Positions 5,897 to 25,599 of a stretch of 39,885 nt of DNA are shown here, in pieces. The DNA is from Euryarchaeota archaeon TMED99. GTDB lineage: Archaea > Thermoplasmatota > Poseidoniia > Poseidoniales > Poseidoniaceae. The translations under genes and the position numbers were made by a program. The notes under the pieces were generated by a model that searched no databases, had not been told where the DNA came from, and saw nothing but the letters and a program-made list of their open reading frames with translations. Position 1 is the first letter of the stretch, and the number at the start of each line of letters is the position of its first letter. The stretch spans positions 5,182 to 45,066 of the forward strand of contig NHFA02000018.1 in NCBI GenBank assembly GCA_002170315.2, read 5' to 3'.

Positions 5897-6652
5897 TCAA
5901 GCAGCAACATCAAGCCATTCATATCCTTTATCTTCGAGACGAAGAGCGAGTTCAGGTCCACCTGTTTTAACGATTACACCATCAATCATGGCGTGAACAA
6001 AGTCGGGCTTGACAAGATCAAGCAGTCGTTGATAGTGTGTAATGATGAGGCACCCCGAATTGACAGCAACTTCATTGATTCCTTGGGCGACAATTCGCAG
6101 AGCATCGATGTCTAAACCAGAGTCTGTTTCATCAAGCAGTGCAAGATGAGGCTGAAGTAAAAGCATCTGCAAAATCTCAAGGCGCTTCTTTTCTCCCCCA
6201 CTGAATCCATCGTTTACATAACGAGAAAGAAAACTCTTATCCATCGATAATTGCTCCATAGCAGCTGTTAATTCTTTACGGAAAGCACGGCCCTTTGGAG
6301 GCTCTTCACGCACAGATGCAACAGATTTTTTGAGGAAAGTTCCGACTTGAACCCCCGGTATTGATGCAGGGTATTGAAATGACAGAAACATACCGGCTCT
6401 GGCTCGCTCAAAAACTTCGAGTTCTTCCAAAGGTTGGCCTTGGTAAAAGATGCGCCCCTCGGTGATTTCATAGGCCGGATGACCCATGACCACGTTGGCT
6501 AAAGTTGACTTTCCAGCACCGTTTCGGCCCATTACAGCGTGAATCTCTCCTCGATTGATGGTAAGGTTTACTCCTTTGAGAATTGGAGTTCCTTCAACTT
6601 GGACATGGAGATTTTCGACGCGTAAGATTTCGTCTACCATACCCTCACCCAT
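5897..6652 (-). CDS. sufC: SufC, ABC-type ATPase of the SUF scaffold
   Basis: The ATPase of the SufBCD complex, a soluble ABC protein whose ATP-driven dimerisation reshapes SufB/SufD. Walker [10 protein letters not shown], the signature [10 protein letters not shown] and Walker B plus D-loop [12 protein letters not shown] are all present; the LDETDSGLD form is characteristic of SufC. The frame opens with a TTG at 6679, but the ATG at 6652 follows GAGGGG and gives 251 aa, the usual size. A further ATG at 6640 is possible. A TTGATAAA stretch at about 6672-6679 lies roughly 26 bases upstream of the ATG and could be a TATA box. It is the first gene of the operon and divergent from the NifU-like gene. 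Confidence 0.95.
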
Positions 6653-6723
6653 ATACCCCTCGCGTAACTCCTTTATCAAGTGGTGTAATCATGCCCCACA
6701 CAGATACACTGAACTGCACGACC

Positions 6724-6739
6724 TGAATACTAGTATTCA
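6724..6739. promoter_or_regulatory. Perfect 16-bp palindrome between divergent sufC and NifU-like genes
   Basis: TGAATACTAGTATTCA is identical to its reverse complement over all 16 bases. It lies 72 bases upstream of the chosen sufC start and 25 bases upstream of the NifU-like ATG, in the only intergenic gap between the two Fe-S assembly units. Size and symmetry fit a site for a dimeric regulator, and the position would allow repression of the NifU-like promoter. That it controls iron-sulfur genes is inference from location. It does not match a DtxR or IscR consensus I can recall. Confidence 0.5.
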
Positions 6740-6764
6740 AGAAGAAGAGGAGGGAGCGTTGAGC

Positions 6765-7223
6765 ATGACCGACGATGAACTGGTTGCCAAATATGCTGCC
6801 GAAGCAAAAGCAGCGATGTCAACTGAAGCAAAGCGTCGAATTGACGAGTTAACCGACCCGGTAGAAGAGCAACGCCTTCGTTCTACTTCTCTCCTCAACA
6901 TGATAGGAACCAACGAGTTTGTGCCTGCACTTCTTGCCCGTTTAGGGGATGTCCGTGCAGCGCTTGATGGGCACGGTGGCGGCATTGCGGTTTCTTCTCT
7001 TGATTGGGGTGAATCCAATGCTTCTGAACTGGATTTAGTTCTGGATTTAACCGGTGCTTGCCTTTCATGTGGAGCGGCTCCTGGAACCCTCGAGGGTGTG
7101 AAAACGGACTTGGAGGCAGATGAAGAAATCTGCCGGATCCGATTTTCCTCTGCTTTACTCGATACGTTTGATGAGTTAGGACGAGAATTTATTCTTGCCC
7201 ATGGTGCTGTAGAATTTGTGTAA
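6765..7223 (+). CDS. NifU C-terminal-domain-like Fe-S scaffold protein
   Basis: A 152-aa protein. Residues 1-50 are a charged helical N-terminus, and roughly 52-130 resemble the NifU C-terminal (Nfu) domain: an opening helix with LLARLGDVRAALDGHGGGIA, then LDLTGACLSCGAAPGTLEGV with the CxxC pair C99/C102. In Nfu proteins this pair binds a [4Fe-4S] cluster for delivery to apoproteins. The start ATG at 6765 follows GGAGGGA; the open frame extends further upstream across sufC but lacks signals. It is transcribed away from sufC, so the two units could share one regulator. The next gene, archaeosine TGT, lies close downstream; a functional link is not evident. The long N-terminus is unusual for the family. 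Confidence 0.82.
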   Translation: MTDDELVAKYAAEAKAAMSTEAKRRIDELTDPVEEQRLRSTSLLNMIGTNEFVPALLARLGDVRAALDGHGGGIAVSSLDWGESNASELDLVLDLTGACLSCGAAPGTLEGVKTDLEADEEICRIRFSSALLDTFDELGREFILAHGAVEFV

Positions 7224-7277
7224 AGATGAATCCTTTGAATGGATGGTTTGAAAGACACGGATGAAGGGGTTGATACT

Positions 7278-19608: not shown

Positions 19609-20220
19609 TCATTCCGATTCAAGTGCGTTGACAACCGAGAGCAACTCCTCATCGCCATCTGTAATCTCTTCGATGTCATTCGATTCCTCATACAGGGGTA
19701 AGTCCAATGCTTCGAATGGATTGATACCATCTTCAAGTTGGCACAGTAATCTCCAACGGGGAGCCCATGAAAGATGGACATACATTGGGCCGGGTAATAG
19801 CAAAAGAAGCCAGATGAGACTTGCTGGGAAAGATACCATTTCAGTTTGAGAAATAGTTAACAAACCAAATCCAACAAAGGGCATTGGATAGAGAATGTAT
19901 CGAGGAGGGGTCACGGGGAACCGCTTTGAAATGCTTACAATAATCAAAGAAAACATCCCGAGAAGCAAGCAAGCAACCATGATGAGTGCAGAATGGAAGA
20001 TCCAATTACTGAACCAACTTGCCGAATCATTTCCAAATCGATAGGGTAGGAGCAGAGCAAGAGAAATCAAAAAACCGTAAAATGCGGCGATATTCGATGG
20101 ATGGGAAAGCCAAAGAGGCAATCGAGTGAAACGTCGAGAAAGTGAAGTTCCTAAGAGCGTCTCTCGTTCTTTCGAACCAAGAGCGTCAAGGTGACCTTGC
20201 CATCTTCGAGGAGATTCCAC
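19609..20220 (-). CDS. Unknown membrane protein, four hydrophobic segments
   Basis: A 203-aa protein not recognised as any family. Hydrophobic stretches lie near residues 43-60, 76-98, 107-124 and 130-147, followed by an acidic cytoplasm-like tail ending NALESE. The start is a GTG at 20220 with GGAGA just upstream. It lies 57 bases after the other unknown membrane-protein gene on the same strand, and both have acidic, Glu-rich C-termini, so they probably form one transcript and may act together. Its stop is immediately adjacent to the stop of the convergent oxoamine synthase. No function is proposed. Confidence 0.7.
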   Translation of the reverse strand: MESPRRWQGHLDALGSKERETLLGTSLSRRFTRLPLWLSHPSNIAAFYGFLISLALLLPYRFGNDSASWFSNWIFHSALIMVACLLLGMFSLIIVSISKRFPVTPPRYILYPMPFVGFGLLTISQTEMVSFPASLIWLLLLLPGPMYVHLSWAPRWRLLCQLEDGINPFEALDLPLYEESNDIEEITDGDEELLSVVNALESE

Positions 20221-20277: not shown

Positions 20278-20928
20278 TTATTCTCGACGAAGTTTACTAA
20301 GAATGCCATCAGGTTCGATTTCAATCGATTGTTCTTCTTCAAACCACGATCGTTCAAGGAGACCTGAATCGTTCTTTTCTCGCTCCCGCGCCGATTCTAT
20401 CGAATCTTCATCTCCGTTTACCGCATCACGCAATGCAATGGCTTGATTGATTAAAATCACATATCTTTTGAGTGCCGGATGGTTTTGAGGTAAATGGCTA
20501 AAGTGCCCAAGAACCGCATAGGTGTCATCATCACGAATAAGCAGTGAGCCGCCCATCAATTCATCCGCAGTCAAGCGTACTCGACCCTCTCCAACATCCC
20601 CCCATAAACCATCAGAGAATTGAACCATAACAACGGCTTGGCCAAGTTCAAGATCGCCCATAAATGGATGATTCAAATTCACTGCTAAAGGAACTCTGAG
20701 AAGGGGTGATTGTCGATAGAGAAATACGCCTCCCAGAACTCCGAGAATGAACAGCGAAAGAGAGAATAATAAACTGGCGTTAATGGAGATAAAAAACCAT
20801 ACTCCTCCAACTAAAAGAGCCTCGAAAAGAACAAGCATTACGAAAAAACGATACAGGAAAGGGCGAGCGATTTCAAGTGAAATAAAACGTCGCATTTCGA
20901 CCGACAATTCACCTCGCTCTTCGGCCAT
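20278..20928 (-). CDS. Unknown membrane protein with two hydrophobic segments
   Basis: A 216-aa protein of no recognised family. Two hydrophobic helices at about 27-47 and 50-69 form an N-terminal hairpin, followed by a polar domain of mixed strands and helices (SDGLWGDVGEGRVRLTADEL) and a charged C-terminus ending SKLRRE. The topology suggests membrane anchoring with most of the chain on one side. The ATG at 20928 begins MAEERGELS. It is divergent from the DUF835 gene across 164 bases, which probably contain promoters for both. Co-transcribed with the 203-aa membrane protein by position. Confidence 0.7.
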   Translation of the reverse strand: MAEERGELSVEMRRFISLEIARPFLYRFFVMLVLFEALLVGGVWFFISINASLLFSLSLFILGVLGGVFLYRQSPLLRVPLAVNLNHPFMGDLELGQAVVMVQFSDGLWGDVGEGRVRLTADELMGGSLLIRDDDTYAVLGHFSHLPQNHPALKRYVILINQAIALRDAVNGDEDSIESAREREKNDSGLLERSWFEEEQSIEIEPDGILSKLRRE

Positions 20929-21092: not shown

Positions 21093-23105
21093 ATGGTAGA
21101 ACTGCCGCAGGGAGATGTGACAGAAGTTCGTCGAGGCGGCCCTGAATCTTTACGATTACTTTCTACAGATATGGCCCGTTTGGGGACCTCGGGATACATC
21201 CGTATTGAGCGAAGACCAAAGGAACAGATGCCCCGAATAGGTCACATCGCATTCTTGGAAGGAAAACCTATGTTCGCATTGCATGAAGCCGATGCAATCT
21301 CAATGTCTCTGGAAGCATTGCTGGATATTGAAAACGATGCTGCACTTCTCGATGCTTTACTCGCCATTCACGAATTATCCTTGCCTGACACATCTAACAT
21401 CCTTACCCTCTATCCTGAGGCACACTTTCAGATGGATGATGCTTCTGAAGCCAATGAAGAGAATCACCAGTGGTGGTCAAAAACCAATATTCGAACGAGC
21501 TCTTGGAAACGTGACGAACGATTACCCGAACTCGAAGCAGTGATTGAAGCACCCGAAGCGATACGACAGCGAAGTAAAGCACTCATGCAACGCCATGACG
21601 GTCTTGAAAAAATGTTGAGACCTGGTGATGCCTATTTCTTCGACTCTAACAATCCGGCTCCTCTGTTTAATCTCGCAGGCCACTTAGCGGTTCATGGGCG
21701 GCCACTGTTCGTTCTGGCACGGCACGATATCGAGGCACTCAACGTCGAGCATAACATTCCAATCGCATCAAGTTCATGGCTATCGCAAAACGGTGACGCG
21801 CGTTCAACGGACCCAGCACTGGAAACGATTCGACGACGTATTGATGCTTTCCTATGGGAAAACCTCCGAGCTGTTGTCGTCCTTGAAGGAATTGAATATT
21901 TGGCAAGCCTTCATGGAGATGCGAAAGTGGTCAATTTCCTGCGAGACATTGTCGACGGAGTTCGTCTTGAAGACCACCTGTTTCTGGCAACTGCCGACTT
22001 CAATGCATTCCCACTGACGACTAGAGAACATTTGTCGCGCTACATGTCGAATCTTGAGCCTTCTGTTCTTGAACACTGGAATCTCGAACCAGATCTCATA
22101 CTCGATCACCCGCTGTGTGCTCCACCAAGTGAAGAGGAAGGGAAGTGGATTGAACAACAATTGCAGCAAGCCATTTCCCCTTCAACATATGAGGAAATCT
22201 CGCCACAAGCTACTGTCTTTGGAACCATGGAAGGGGGAGTTGAATCTCCAGACTCCGACATTATTCTTGCTGCAACAGAGAATCTTGAAACAGTTGCTCG
22301 AGAATGGAGCCAACCGAATCCGAACCAATCTTTTGAACCCTCGACTCATGAAAATGAAGTTGAACCTCAAGCGGGCGAAGTTGCCGCTGAAACTGATGAT
22401 GACCTACCTGAGCATAAGGAAGAAATGACAGAACAACAAACTGAAAACGTTGACATGAATGATGCCTTACTTGAAGATACAACGTTTTCAGAAGAGCCTA
22501 CCTCAGAGGAATCGAAAGATGAGCCGGAGTCTCAGCGCACCAGTGAACCTGAGAAAAAAAGTGCACCACGTCCGGCTCAACGTGTTCGTCGAAAGAGAAA
22601 AAACGCTGGTGTTCGAAGAACTGCTCGTAATCAACAAGCCATTCAGGCTGCAGTTTTACATGCTGTTGAAGCAAAAGAGTTGAGTGAGATAGAAAGCCTT
22701 CGCTCAAGCCCTGTGGGCACATTTGCAAACTCACTTGAAGCATACGCTCAACGTCAAGATCAGGCGATTGAAAACATGCGCGCTCAATCTTCACCTCAAA
22801 GTGATTCTTCTCTGAACAACTCATCGATACAACTGAAGGACATTCAAGACATCGGAGTGAGAAAAGCACCGGCCCAAAAAGGTTCAATTGAATCGGTGAA
22901 AGGTCGGCGTCCAGTTCATACAGAAACACCACTCACCCCCCTTAGTGCCCGACCTGGCACTGCAAAGTCGGTTGAATCTAAACCCCTAAACCGTGAATCC
23001 GCTTCAAGAAAACAATCTGAACCTTCAATTGAAAACAAACTCAGCATTTGGGAAATCGAAGACCTTGAACGATTGAGAAAAGAGTTGGAGGAGGGGAAGA
23101 AATGA
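21093..23105 (+). CDS. DUF835-domain protein with long charged C-terminal region
   Basis: A 670-aa soluble protein. Residues 10-115 form a small domain (SGYIRIERR, then RIGHIAFLEGKPMFALHEAD) reminiscent of DUF4388/PatA-like sensory modules. Residues about 175-320 fit the archaeal DUF835 domain: LRPGDAYFF, RPLFVLARHDIE, SWLSQNG, then AVVVLEGIEYLASLHGDAKV and TREHLSRYM. The remaining half is low-complexity, strongly acidic around 390-480, then a basic patch PAQRVRRKRKNAGVRRTA near 488-505, and a final helical end. DUF835 has no established biochemical role. It heads a three-gene set in which each stop overlaps the next ATG, so it probably acts with the DnaA-like ATPase. Confidence 0.75.
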   Translation: MVELPQGDVTEVRRGGPESLRLLSTDMARLGTSGYIRIERRPKEQMPRIGHIAFLEGKPMFALHEADAISMSLEALLDIENDAALLDALLAIHELSLPDTSNILTLYPEAHFQMDDASEANEENHQWWSKTNIRTSSWKRDERLPELEAVIEAPEAIRQRSKALMQRHDGLEKMLRPGDAYFFDSNNPAPLFNLAGHLAVHGRPLFVLARHDIEALNVEHNIPIASSSWLSQNGDARSTDPALETIRRRIDAFLWENLRAVVVLEGIEYLASLHGDAKVVNFLRDIVDGVRLEDHLFLATADFNAFPLTTREHLSRYMSNLEPSVLEHWNLEPDLILDHPLCAPPSEEEGKWIEQQLQQAISPSTYEEISPQATVFGTMEGGVESPDSDIILAATENLETVAREWSQPNPNQSFEPSTHENEVEPQAGEVAAETDDDLPEHKEEMTEQQTENVDMNDALLEDTTFSEEPTSEESKDEPESQRTSEPEKKSAPRPAQRVRRKRKNAGVRRTARNQQAIQAAVLHAVEAKELSEIESLRSSPVGTFANSLEAYAQRQDQAIENMRAQSSPQSDSSLNNSSIQLKDIQDIGVRKAPAQKGSIESVKGRRPVHTETPLTPLSARPGTAKSVESKPLNRESASRKQSEPSIENKLSIWEIEDLERLRKELEEGKK

Positions 23106-25135
23106 ATGCTCGTCGAGAGAAGTTAGCCCTTGCCCTTGAATTGGCAAAGCAGCGACTTCATCAATCAGGCACAGGTATTGAACGGGTCCCAACACCTGCG
23201 AAGAAAGAAAAATCTCGGTCAAAATCAAAGATGAACAGATTACTTGGAAAGGATGTTCAAGACCAACGTCAAGGAACTCTCCTGCAGCGAACTGGAGTGG
23301 CTGAGCGGCCAACTTTTGATTTGGTAGCAGACAAAGTATTGGGTAAAGAGAGTAAACGAAGAACTCCAGCTCTCGATTTACAATCCAATGGAGATTCACT
23401 TTCAGACATTGCTGCACGAAGAATACGTTCCTTACGACAACGTACTTATGAGCAAATCGAAGATGTTATCGAGGAAGAAGAAAGTGGATTTTTAGGACTC
23501 GAAGAAGATGGACGACCTGTCTGGGAACGTATTTTGGATGAACAACGAGGGCGAGTAAGTCACGCATTAGCACCCGAAATAGCGCCCGTTGAAAGTTCAT
23601 CTCCATACCACCATGAAACCGTTCTACCTCTCGAAAATCAATGGCCGTCACGCTTGCGCTCGGACATCCGAATGAGTTTCAAACAATGGTTCACGACTGA
23701 AGAAAACATTCGTGCAACTCAGGCTGCAGAAGCAATCGTTGATTCACCCGGAGGACATCTCAATCCAATGCTCTTTATTGGGGCCTCAGAAACTGGACGG
23801 TCTCATCTTCTTCATGCAATTTCTCAAGCCATACTTCGACGCCAGGAAGGCGGCGTTTACTTACTCTCAGCAACTGATTTTTCAGGCATGAATACGTTAC
23901 CAAATGGTTGGCAAGATACACTCGTGAATGCACGGCTGTTGGCCATTGATGACATTCATGAATGTGCAGATAATGCAGACCTTGCTCATGAAATTGGAAC
24001 GATGCTTGACTACGCAGTTAACATGGGAGTTCACGTTTTGCTTTCCTCGAGTTCCGAACCCGACACATGGCCAACATCACGATTGTGGGAATTAACTCGC
24101 CATGCCGCAGCAGTTCATATCGGTGCTCCAAAAATCGCAAGTATGATTCTCTATGCACGGAATTTAGCTCAAAAGAAAGGGTTCATCTTTGATGATACAC
24201 AACTGAAAAGTATTGTTTTGCAAGATGACATCGGATGGCGGGCAACCAAAGCAAACTTCGATTTGGTCGCACTTGCGCTCAACTCAGGTCGTGAAATTCT
24301 TGACGGCCAAGATGTCCATTCGTTGCTCTCAAATCAATCAACCGAAGAGACAGAGGTCACTCCAATAGTTCGAGAAAAGGTAGAGGATATCGCAACTCGG
24401 TTGATTTCGACCGCCGTCGATACTGTTTACAGCGATACAGTTCATGGTGGAATCGATTTGTATTCCGAACTTCCGGAGATTGGAGATGATTCCTATCAGC
24501 CACCGGAGTTTGATGTCGAATCCATGAAGAAGCAAGCAGATGACCGGTACGCTGCTCATCTCAAGTTTGCTCTTGAAGACACGGCTCCAGCCGCACCTTC
24601 TGTTCTCGCATTGCACGAGCGAGACGAACATCTTATCACGCGCAAAGGCAAGATAGAGGAACGTGACTACGGAATTGCCGCAGACGTACTTACCGAATTA
24701 GACGAAGCCTTTGATTCTCAAATCAACGCCTTTGAAAAGGAACTACGAGAAAGTTCATTGCAACTGGCAAATATTGAAAATAAATTGGTGAATCTATCTG
24801 AGCGTACTCCTGATGCATCGATGGATGAATTGATTTCAATTGCTGATGAACTGCGTTCAATGGAACACAGTCTAACTGAATTTGACCCTGAACGCGAACC
24901 ATGGCCAGAAATGGAACCCGATGAAAGTTCCAAGAAGAATCGCCGTAAAGTAGGTCGTCGTAAGGCAAATTCAGCAGACAAAGCACTTGAAAGTCACGAA
25001 CCACAAGGCGAATGGAACATTGATGCACAGAGCGTTGATATGCTGGATCTACTGGAATCAGAAGAAGAAACCCGGTTGATTCGACTCGGGCGAATAAATC
25101 CAATTACAAAACTCGTCCTAGGTGAAGAAGAATGA
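23102..25135 (+). CDS. DnaA/Hda-like AAA+ protein with altered Walker A
   Basis: A 677-aa protein. Residues 1-185 are charged and mostly disordered. Residues 190-400 align by eye with the DnaA AAA+ core: F..W at 193-196, NPMLFIGASETGRSHLLHAI at 221-240 against DnaA NPL..GG.G.GKTHL.HAI, Walker B LLAIDDIHE at 279-287, a Sensor I-like LLSSSSEP at 313-320, an Arg-containing box II segment, and Sensor II arginine R380 in GWRATKANF. The Walker A lysine is Arg233. No DnaA domain IV DNA-binding motif is visible; instead there is a long acidic C-terminus with a coiled coil at about 530-600. The ATG overlaps the DUF835 gene stop and follows GGAGGAGGGG. DnaA is not the usual archaeal initiator, so a replication role should not be assumed. 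Confidence 0.78.
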   Translation: MNARREKLALALELAKQRLHQSGTGIERVPTPAKKEKSRSKSKMNRLLGKDVQDQRQGTLLQRTGVAERPTFDLVADKVLGKESKRRTPALDLQSNGDSLSDIAARRIRSLRQRTYEQIEDVIEEEESGFLGLEEDGRPVWERILDEQRGRVSHALAPEIAPVESSSPYHHETVLPLENQWPSRLRSDIRMSFKQWFTTEENIRATQAAEAIVDSPGGHLNPMLFIGASETGRSHLLHAISQAILRRQEGGVYLLSATDFSGMNTLPNGWQDTLVNARLLAIDDIHECADNADLAHEIGTMLDYAVNMGVHVLLSSSSEPDTWPTSRLWELTRHAAAVHIGAPKIASMILYARNLAQKKGFIFDDTQLKSIVLQDDIGWRATKANFDLVALALNSGREILDGQDVHSLLSNQSTEETEVTPIVREKVEDIATRLISTAVDTVYSDTVHGGIDLYSELPEIGDDSYQPPEFDVESMKKQADDRYAAHLKFALEDTAPAAPSVLALHERDEHLITRKGKIEERDYGIAADVLTELDEAFDSQINAFEKELRESSLQLANIENKLVNLSERTPDASMDELISIADELRSMEHSLTEFDPEREPWPEMEPDESSKKNRRKVGRRKANSADKALESHEPQGEWNIDAQSVDMLDLLESEEETRLIRLGRINPITKLVLGEEE

Positions 25136-25599
25136 GAGGACCATGGTGGATGAAAGGCGTCGGTTTTTCCTGCCAAGAAGGCTGTGGAAGATGTTGCGAT
25201 GAGCCAGGTGGAATTGTCTATCTCTCACCGAAGGATGCAGAACGAATTGCTCAAAGCAATGACATGAGTGTCGAGGATTGGCTGGAGAGGGATTGTCGAC
25301 AAACGCTCGATGGTCGGTACGTATTGAAAAGCCGTCCAGTTGATGATGTTTGTATCTATCTTGATGAGAACAAGCAGTGCTCGATTTATTCAGTCCGTCC
25401 ACAACAATGTGCGGCATTCCCTTGGTGGGGTGAAAATTTAGCAACCGAACGTGCATGGAAAAAGGTCAAAGAAGAATGCCCTGGGCTTACTGCCGACGAT
25501 GCAATTCTTATCGATGGAGAAACGATTCGAATCCATGTATTTGCCGACCGTGAGTCGACAAAAGGGTTCCGTTCATGGCCCGCATGGAACCGAAATTAA
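25132..25599 (+). CDS. YkgJ-family Cys-rich (zinc/iron-chelating) protein
   Basis: A 155-aa protein with the YkgJ/Fe-S-oxidoreductase-like cysteine pattern: FSCQEGCGRCCDEPGG near residue 11 and later CSIYSVRPQQCAAFPWW near 83. Such proteins bind zinc or an Fe-S cluster through these cysteines; their biochemical role is generally unknown, though some are linked to protein methylation or flagellar genes in bacteria. The ATG overlaps the DnaA-like gene stop as ATGA, so it is the third member of the DUF835 set. Whether it acts with the ATPase or is only co-transcribed cannot be decided. Confidence 0.85.
   Translation: MRGPWWMKGVGFSCQEGCGRCCDEPGGIVYLSPKDAERIAQSNDMSVEDWLERDCRQTLDGRYVLKSRPVDDVCIYLDENKQCSIYSVRPQQCAAFPWWGENLATERAWKKVKEECPGLTADDAILIDGETIRIHVFADRESTKGFRSWPAWNRN

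Follow-up and report, generated by a model that had tools for sequence, protein, structure and literature searches.

Replication initiation in archaea uses Orc1/Cdc6. KaiC-family ATPases have been proposed as archaeal signaling hubs (Makarova et al., 2017, as cited in PMC5847659), and DUF835 has been described as an inactivated KaiC domain (iKaiC) that occurs in archaeal response regulators, the REC-DUF835 proteins (PMC5847659). We analyzed a window, i.e., the whole stretch of 39,885 nucleotides from Euryarchaeota archaeon TMED99, in which a DUF835 protein (gene 1, product G1) is encoded beside an AAA+ protein of the DnaA type (gene 2, product G2). The joining of a sensor-like domain, a DnaA-type AAA+ module and a dead KaiC domain offers a concrete candidate for signal entry or exit at the KaiC hubs, and we favor, with slightly better than even confidence, the reading that G1 and G2 are the two halves of a single KaiC-network signaling complex. 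The locus also presents a DnaA core in archaea apparently serving a purpose other than initiation. No description of the combination of this N-domain with a DnaA-type AAA+ and DUF835 was found in the open-licence literature.

Gene 1 (21093-23105, + strand, 670 aa), gene 2 (23102-25135, +, 677 aa) and gene 3 (25132-25599, +, 155 aa) overlap by 4 bases at both junctions (23102-23105 and 25132-25135). An earlier sequence-only reading of this DNA had described these overlaps and assigned DUF835, DnaA-like and YkgJ-type domains to the three products; the ORFs and Pfam searches confirmed all of this, with gene 3 scoring 45.1 bits against a cut-off of 23 for the CxxCxxCC family (PF03692). The same reading took the genes to be a translationally linked trio. 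We compared the locus with 39 fetched loci, 25 from family f1 and 14 from family f2 of the order, a bacterial contaminant being excluded. The genes do adjoin in these related loci: the gene 1-gene 2 order is unchanged across all 39, and their 4-base overlap recurs in 29 of them. In nearly all loci that are long enough, TM216 adjoins the pair, and gene 3 and a citrate synthase gene follow it. The overlap between genes 2 and 3 is confined to f1 and a single f2 locus. Gene 3 lies on the strand of the pair in every f1 locus where it was detected, and is inverted in 11 of the 12 f2 loci where it was detected, being co-directional in the remaining one. Given this inversion in the majority of f2 loci, the trio is unsupported as a unit; the conserved core is the gene 1-gene 2 pair, and gene 3 is probably a hitchhiking neighbor.

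Upstream of the pair lies the divergent gene TM216 (20278-20928, -), which encodes a two-helix membrane hairpin. The hydrophobic hairpin is present in nearly all TM216 orthologs, and the gene is missing together with the pair (see below), so that TM216 may be considered a candidate membrane partner of G1 and G2. A neighboring gene, TM203 (19609-20220 of the window, -), has no Pfam match and is retained in some genera from which genes 1 and 2 were lost.

G1 consists of an N-domain, a DUF835 domain with the inactivated KaiC fold, a disordered tail and a C-terminal helix. The N-domain (residues 1-112; 21093-21428, +) was modeled by AF2, using close-relative sequences only, with a pLDDT of about 90, and a profile built from it recovers the N-terminal parts of the fused proteins described below with E-values down to 7e-18; model and profile together indicate a genuine conserved domain, which probably serves in sensing or docking. 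The DUF4388-like sensor module suggested earlier was not recovered: no Pfam DUF4388 (PATAN) match was obtained for the N-domain up to E=10 within the filters of HMMER, and one fused relative gave a weak, below-cut-off match to DUF2226 (20.1 bits). REC and PAS domains were likewise not found in G1 by Pfam. The DUF835/iKaiC domain (residues 175-337; 21615-22103, +) scored 36.6 bits against a Pfam cut-off of 33.1, and DUF835 was matched in 27 of 31 gene-1 orthologs at E<=0.01. The best PDB fold matches of G1 in Foldseek were FlaH/ArlH from S. acidocaldarius (4yds), followed by KaiC and RecA, all with modest TM-scores. Together with the published description of DUF835 (PMC5847659), these ArlH and KaiC matches strongly support the assignment of an inactivated KaiC-type domain. 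Inspection of the alignment showed no GxxxxGK[ST] Walker A motif at G1 residues 175-200, which makes ATPase activity of its own unlikely; judging from the sequence, the domain is probably not an ATPase by itself.

The remainder of G1 is less ordered. An acidic tail (residues 410-485; 22320-22547, +) is predicted to be disordered, with a pLDDT below 50 and a column identity of about 0.22. It is followed by a basic motif with the consensus GPRxxxxxKRRK (residues 490-503; 22560-22601, +), where column identity rises to 0.41 compared with 0.22-0.24 in the flanks. A C-terminal helix (residues 646-669; 23028-23099, +) is predicted by AF2.

G2 carries a DnaA-type AAA+ core and lid (residues 190-410; 23669-24331, +) between long N- and C-terminal extensions. 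Bac_DnaA was matched at 45 bits against a cut-off of 23 (residues 190-322) and in 31 of 31 gene-2 orthologs, and the DNA-binding domain IV (Bac_DnaA_C) was not found by Pfam in G2 or in any of these 31. The best Foldseek match of the core was DnaA domain III (8bv3, TM 0.82 on the target), with Hda next. The G2 profile scored 103 bits on E. coli DnaA, 24 on Hda and 25 on DnaC; of the Orc1/Cdc6 proteins encoded in the same genome, it gave -1 bit on one and did not match the other. The AAA+ profile of the fused relatives behaved in the same manner (268 bits on E. coli DnaA, 58 on Hda, 35 on DnaC, and 7 and -0.2 on these two Orc1/Cdc6 proteins), and the NCBIfam Hda model scored G2 at 44 bits against a cut-off of 195. 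In a domain tree, G2 is monophyletic on a long branch; because the deep nodes are weakly supported, its placement relative to bacterial DnaA was taken from the profile scores. The results strongly support a AAA+ of the DnaA type, rather than of the Hda, DnaC or Orc1/Cdc6 type. The DnaA-type core without domain IV, as first read from the sequence, is thus borne out by Pfam, Foldseek and profile scores alike, and does not group with Orc1/Cdc6 by profile; the Hda-like part of that reading is not upheld.

The catalytic motifs of G2 were assessed in two alignments, A1 (n = 31) and A5 (n = 52). The Walker A motif is degenerate (GASETGRS, residues 227-234; 23780-23803, +), with Arg at the Lys position; the Lys is kept in 20 of 31 sequences of A1 and 13 of 52 of A5, and is otherwise replaced by Arg or Cys (by Gly once, in A5). 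The Walker B Asp-Asp (residues 283-284; 23948-23953, +) is present in 52 of 52 sequences of A5. The arginine finger, at the position of R285 in E. coli, is replaced by V, L, A, I or S in 31 of 31 G2 sequences, and the domain alignment is gapped in the initiator-specific segment, i.e., this segment is shortened. Beyond the core, the AF2 model contains a helical hairpin of two long helices (residues 520-594; 24659-24883, +; pLDDT mostly above 80), and a conserved stretch at PQGEWNIDAQSVDMLDLL (residues 633-651; 24998-25054, +) stands out within the disordered C-terminal tail, with a column identity of 0.35 versus 0.22 just upstream and a proline that is about 90% conserved.

In other Thermoplasmatota, the same parts occur in one chain. 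A profile built from the AAA+ and DUF835 portions of these fused proteins (A7) matches nearly end-to-end in approximately 26 proteins from 17 families, a count that includes one stop-split pair. The order of domains is a G1-like N-domain, the DnaA AAA+ and DUF835, and the N-terminal domain is matched by the profile of G1 residues 1-112 in most of these proteins. Loci L148 and L157 carry the parts in adjacent genes. In the operon-like set of L157 (4452-7954, -), a KaiC ATPase gene (PF06745, 128 bits) lies between the gene for the DnaA-type AAA+ and a 7TM-DUF835 gene (100 bits), with a 12-base gap and a 1-base overlap as spacing. At most fused-protein loci examined, the neighbors are unrelated housekeeping genes, a point against the signaling reading. 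Since single fused proteins exist elsewhere, this Rosetta-stone evidence indicates that G1 and G2 very probably act together, and the pairing of a DnaA-like ATPase with a DUF835 protein, pointed out in the sequence-only reading, recurs as a conserved pair and as fusions. The Walker motifs of the fused proteins are nearly always intact, and they keep the arginine finger in 14 of 17 and the sensor-II arginine in 15 of 17; Poseidoniales G2, in contrast, has lost the arginine finger and, in the window, the Walker-A lysine. The sequence-only reading mentioned neither the fusions nor the loss of the finger. The wide occurrence of the fused form makes the reading testable beyond the uncultured Poseidoniales. 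A group of long proteins of about 1,210-1,290 aa (L145:3270-7004, -; L149:4976-8860, -; L155:664-4416, +; also L146 and L160) was also observed, in which long helical repeats precede a DnaA-type AAA+ located close to the C-terminus; Pfam scans of L145, L149 and L155 also gave zinc-ribbon matches at the end of the protein.

We surveyed 194 genomes of the marine archaeal order Poseidoniales with the gene-1 and gene-2 profiles. Matches to the gene-2 profile were found in all ten f1 genera and in the f2 genera g14, g16, g18 and g21, and matches to the gene-1 profile fall in the same genera. Two other candidates were rejected. The contig that bears the g19 match (genome G091, L069:1-7722) is bacterial and encodes genuine GyrB, DnaN and DnaA; it is probably assembly contamination, and the match was discarded. 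A weak match in g11 (G167, E 8e-4) was taken to reflect general AAA+ similarity. The flanks are intact in 11 genomes from g11, g12, g13, g15, g17, g19 and g20, and no match to TM216 or to gene 1, 2 or 3 lies between them. Gene 3 was detected in all 4 controls but in none of the 23 pair-less genomes tested. In a tree of the two flanking enzymes, the pair-less genera form one clade, and therefore one loss event is enough; the branch of pair loss is that of genome shrinkage. A scan of viral contigs with alignment A3 revealed no relative, and a viral origin was rejected on this basis. Poseidoniales also have another DUF835 protein, approximately 300 aa long, which is encoded in a conserved neighborhood of its own (L177:6293-7207, -; also L178, L183, L187 and L188).

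The distribution of the pair was compared with that of KaiC. Strong KaiC matches (E below 1e-40) were found in the pair-bearing Poseidoniales genera, whereas the pair-less genera have weak ones only; the pair-bearing genera are exactly those with true KaiC, a pattern that amounts to approximately one evolutionary (loss) event. In f2, by hand-compiled lists, strong KaiC was found in 25 genomes, gene 1 or 2 in 25, and both in 24, with one of the 25 gene-bearing genomes (G030) counted only via a shorter DUF835 paralog. Other genes could mirror this pattern, which traces to about one loss on the branch of the shrinking genomes. Elsewhere in the phylum, the 26 fusion-bearing genomes contain 8-35 KaiC matches (median 20) versus 2-17 (median 5) in 40 hand-chosen genomes without the fusion, and KaiC at E<1e-30 was detected in 26 of 26 versus 18 of these 40. 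The excess is significant at the family level (Mann-Whitney p=6e-6), with negatives chosen by hand and without full phylogenetic correction, and a general richness of the fusion-bearing genomes in signaling genes may account for it. Overall, the results strongly support that the pair tracks true KaiC ATPases, not the archaellum. The genome of the window has a KaiC cluster at L179:5285-8660 (+), where a lamin-tail-domain protein, a KaiC ATPase at 6450-7238 and a protein of 201 aa are encoded together with a KaiC-like ATPase that is matched more weakly.

In the proposed signaling complex, the N-domain of G1 would receive a signal. The AAA+ of the fused proteins would work as a nucleotide-dependent oligomerization switch; that of Poseidoniales, with its arginine finger gone, would be mainly a nucleotide-binding or scaffold module. 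The iKaiC domain would dock on active KaiC-family ATPases and relay the state, and TM216 may anchor the complex to the membrane. A more specific version, in which a DnaA-type AAA+ would be united with KaiC-type ATPases in one archaeal signaling machine, the AAA+ assembling on the signal of the N-domain and the iKaiC domain capping or gating active KaiC hexamers, seems doubtful; if true, it would mean that a DnaA core is used outside DNA replication. The sequence-only reading had proposed signaling or positioning instead of initiation. A role apart from initiation is retained, because the genome of the window carries two separate Orc1/Cdc6 genes, and signaling is the likelier field given the inactivated KaiC nature of DUF835 (PMC5847659).

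Two alternatives concern replication or transcription. A replication regulator, for instance an Hda-like brake or an Orc1/Cdc6 helper whose DnaA-type AAA+ acts on DNA or on the initiator, would suit a core that is DnaA domain III, and ATP-driven DNA assembly might be possible in the fused relatives, which mostly keep the Walker motifs, the arginine finger and the sensor-II arginine. We nevertheless consider such a regulator unlikely: domain IV is missing, the G2 profile reaches only 24 bits on Hda, all 31 G2 sequences have lost the arginine finger and the initiator-specific segment is shortened, one entire clade within the order lacks the pair, and no replication gene adjoins it within the window. 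The shortened segment also argues against DNA- or nucleoid-linked transcription control, in which the N-domain and iKaiC would sense state and a AAA+ oligomer would hold single-stranded DNA close to promoters; no known DNA-binding domain was found in G1 or G2 by Pfam, and we regard this possibility as quite improbable, even though the fused AAA+ cores keep DnaA-like motifs and double zinc ribbons terminate the related long proteins.

Two other alternatives were considered. Positioning or regulation of an archaellum or another type IV pilus-like machine via the ArlH-like DUF835 is suggested by the best fold match of G1, and flagellins accompany the pair in every f1 genus. However, flagellins occur without the pair in g13 and g20, and the pair occurs without a flagellin match in g16, with none seen in g21; the archaellum link was rejected on this mismatch with the flagellin distribution, and we give the positioning or regulation of such machines little credence. 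That genes 1 and 2 are unrelated neighbors, their co-loss with KaiC being a by-product of genome reduction, would agree with the single loss event that accounts for the distribution within the order and with the loss of the seemingly unrelated gene 3 at the same place. Chance does not, however, explain why the same domains share one chain in approximately 26 proteins of 17 other families and adjoin elsewhere, which renders mere neighborhood very improbable.

Among known systems, gene 3 is an ordinary member of the YkgJ/CxxCxxCC family, and strand conservation does not support its membership in the system. G2 resembles bacterial DnaA domain III (PF00308, TIGR00362) in fold and sequence, and differs from bacterial DnaA in having neither domain IV nor the arginine finger, in its shortened initiator-specific segment and in its new N- and C-terminal extensions, as well as in the fusion of its relatives' AAA+ to DUF835. 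Hda is likewise a DnaA-family AAA+ without domain IV, but is only poorly matched by the G2 profile. KaiC and ArlH (FlaH) share the fold class of the G1 DUF835 domain, which differs from them by lacking Walker A. G1 resembles the DUF835/iKaiC (PF05763) output domains of archaeal response regulators, residues 197-308 scoring over the Pfam cut-off; compared with the REC-DUF835 proteins, G1 joins this domain to a different N-domain and has a DnaA-type AAA+ as its partner.
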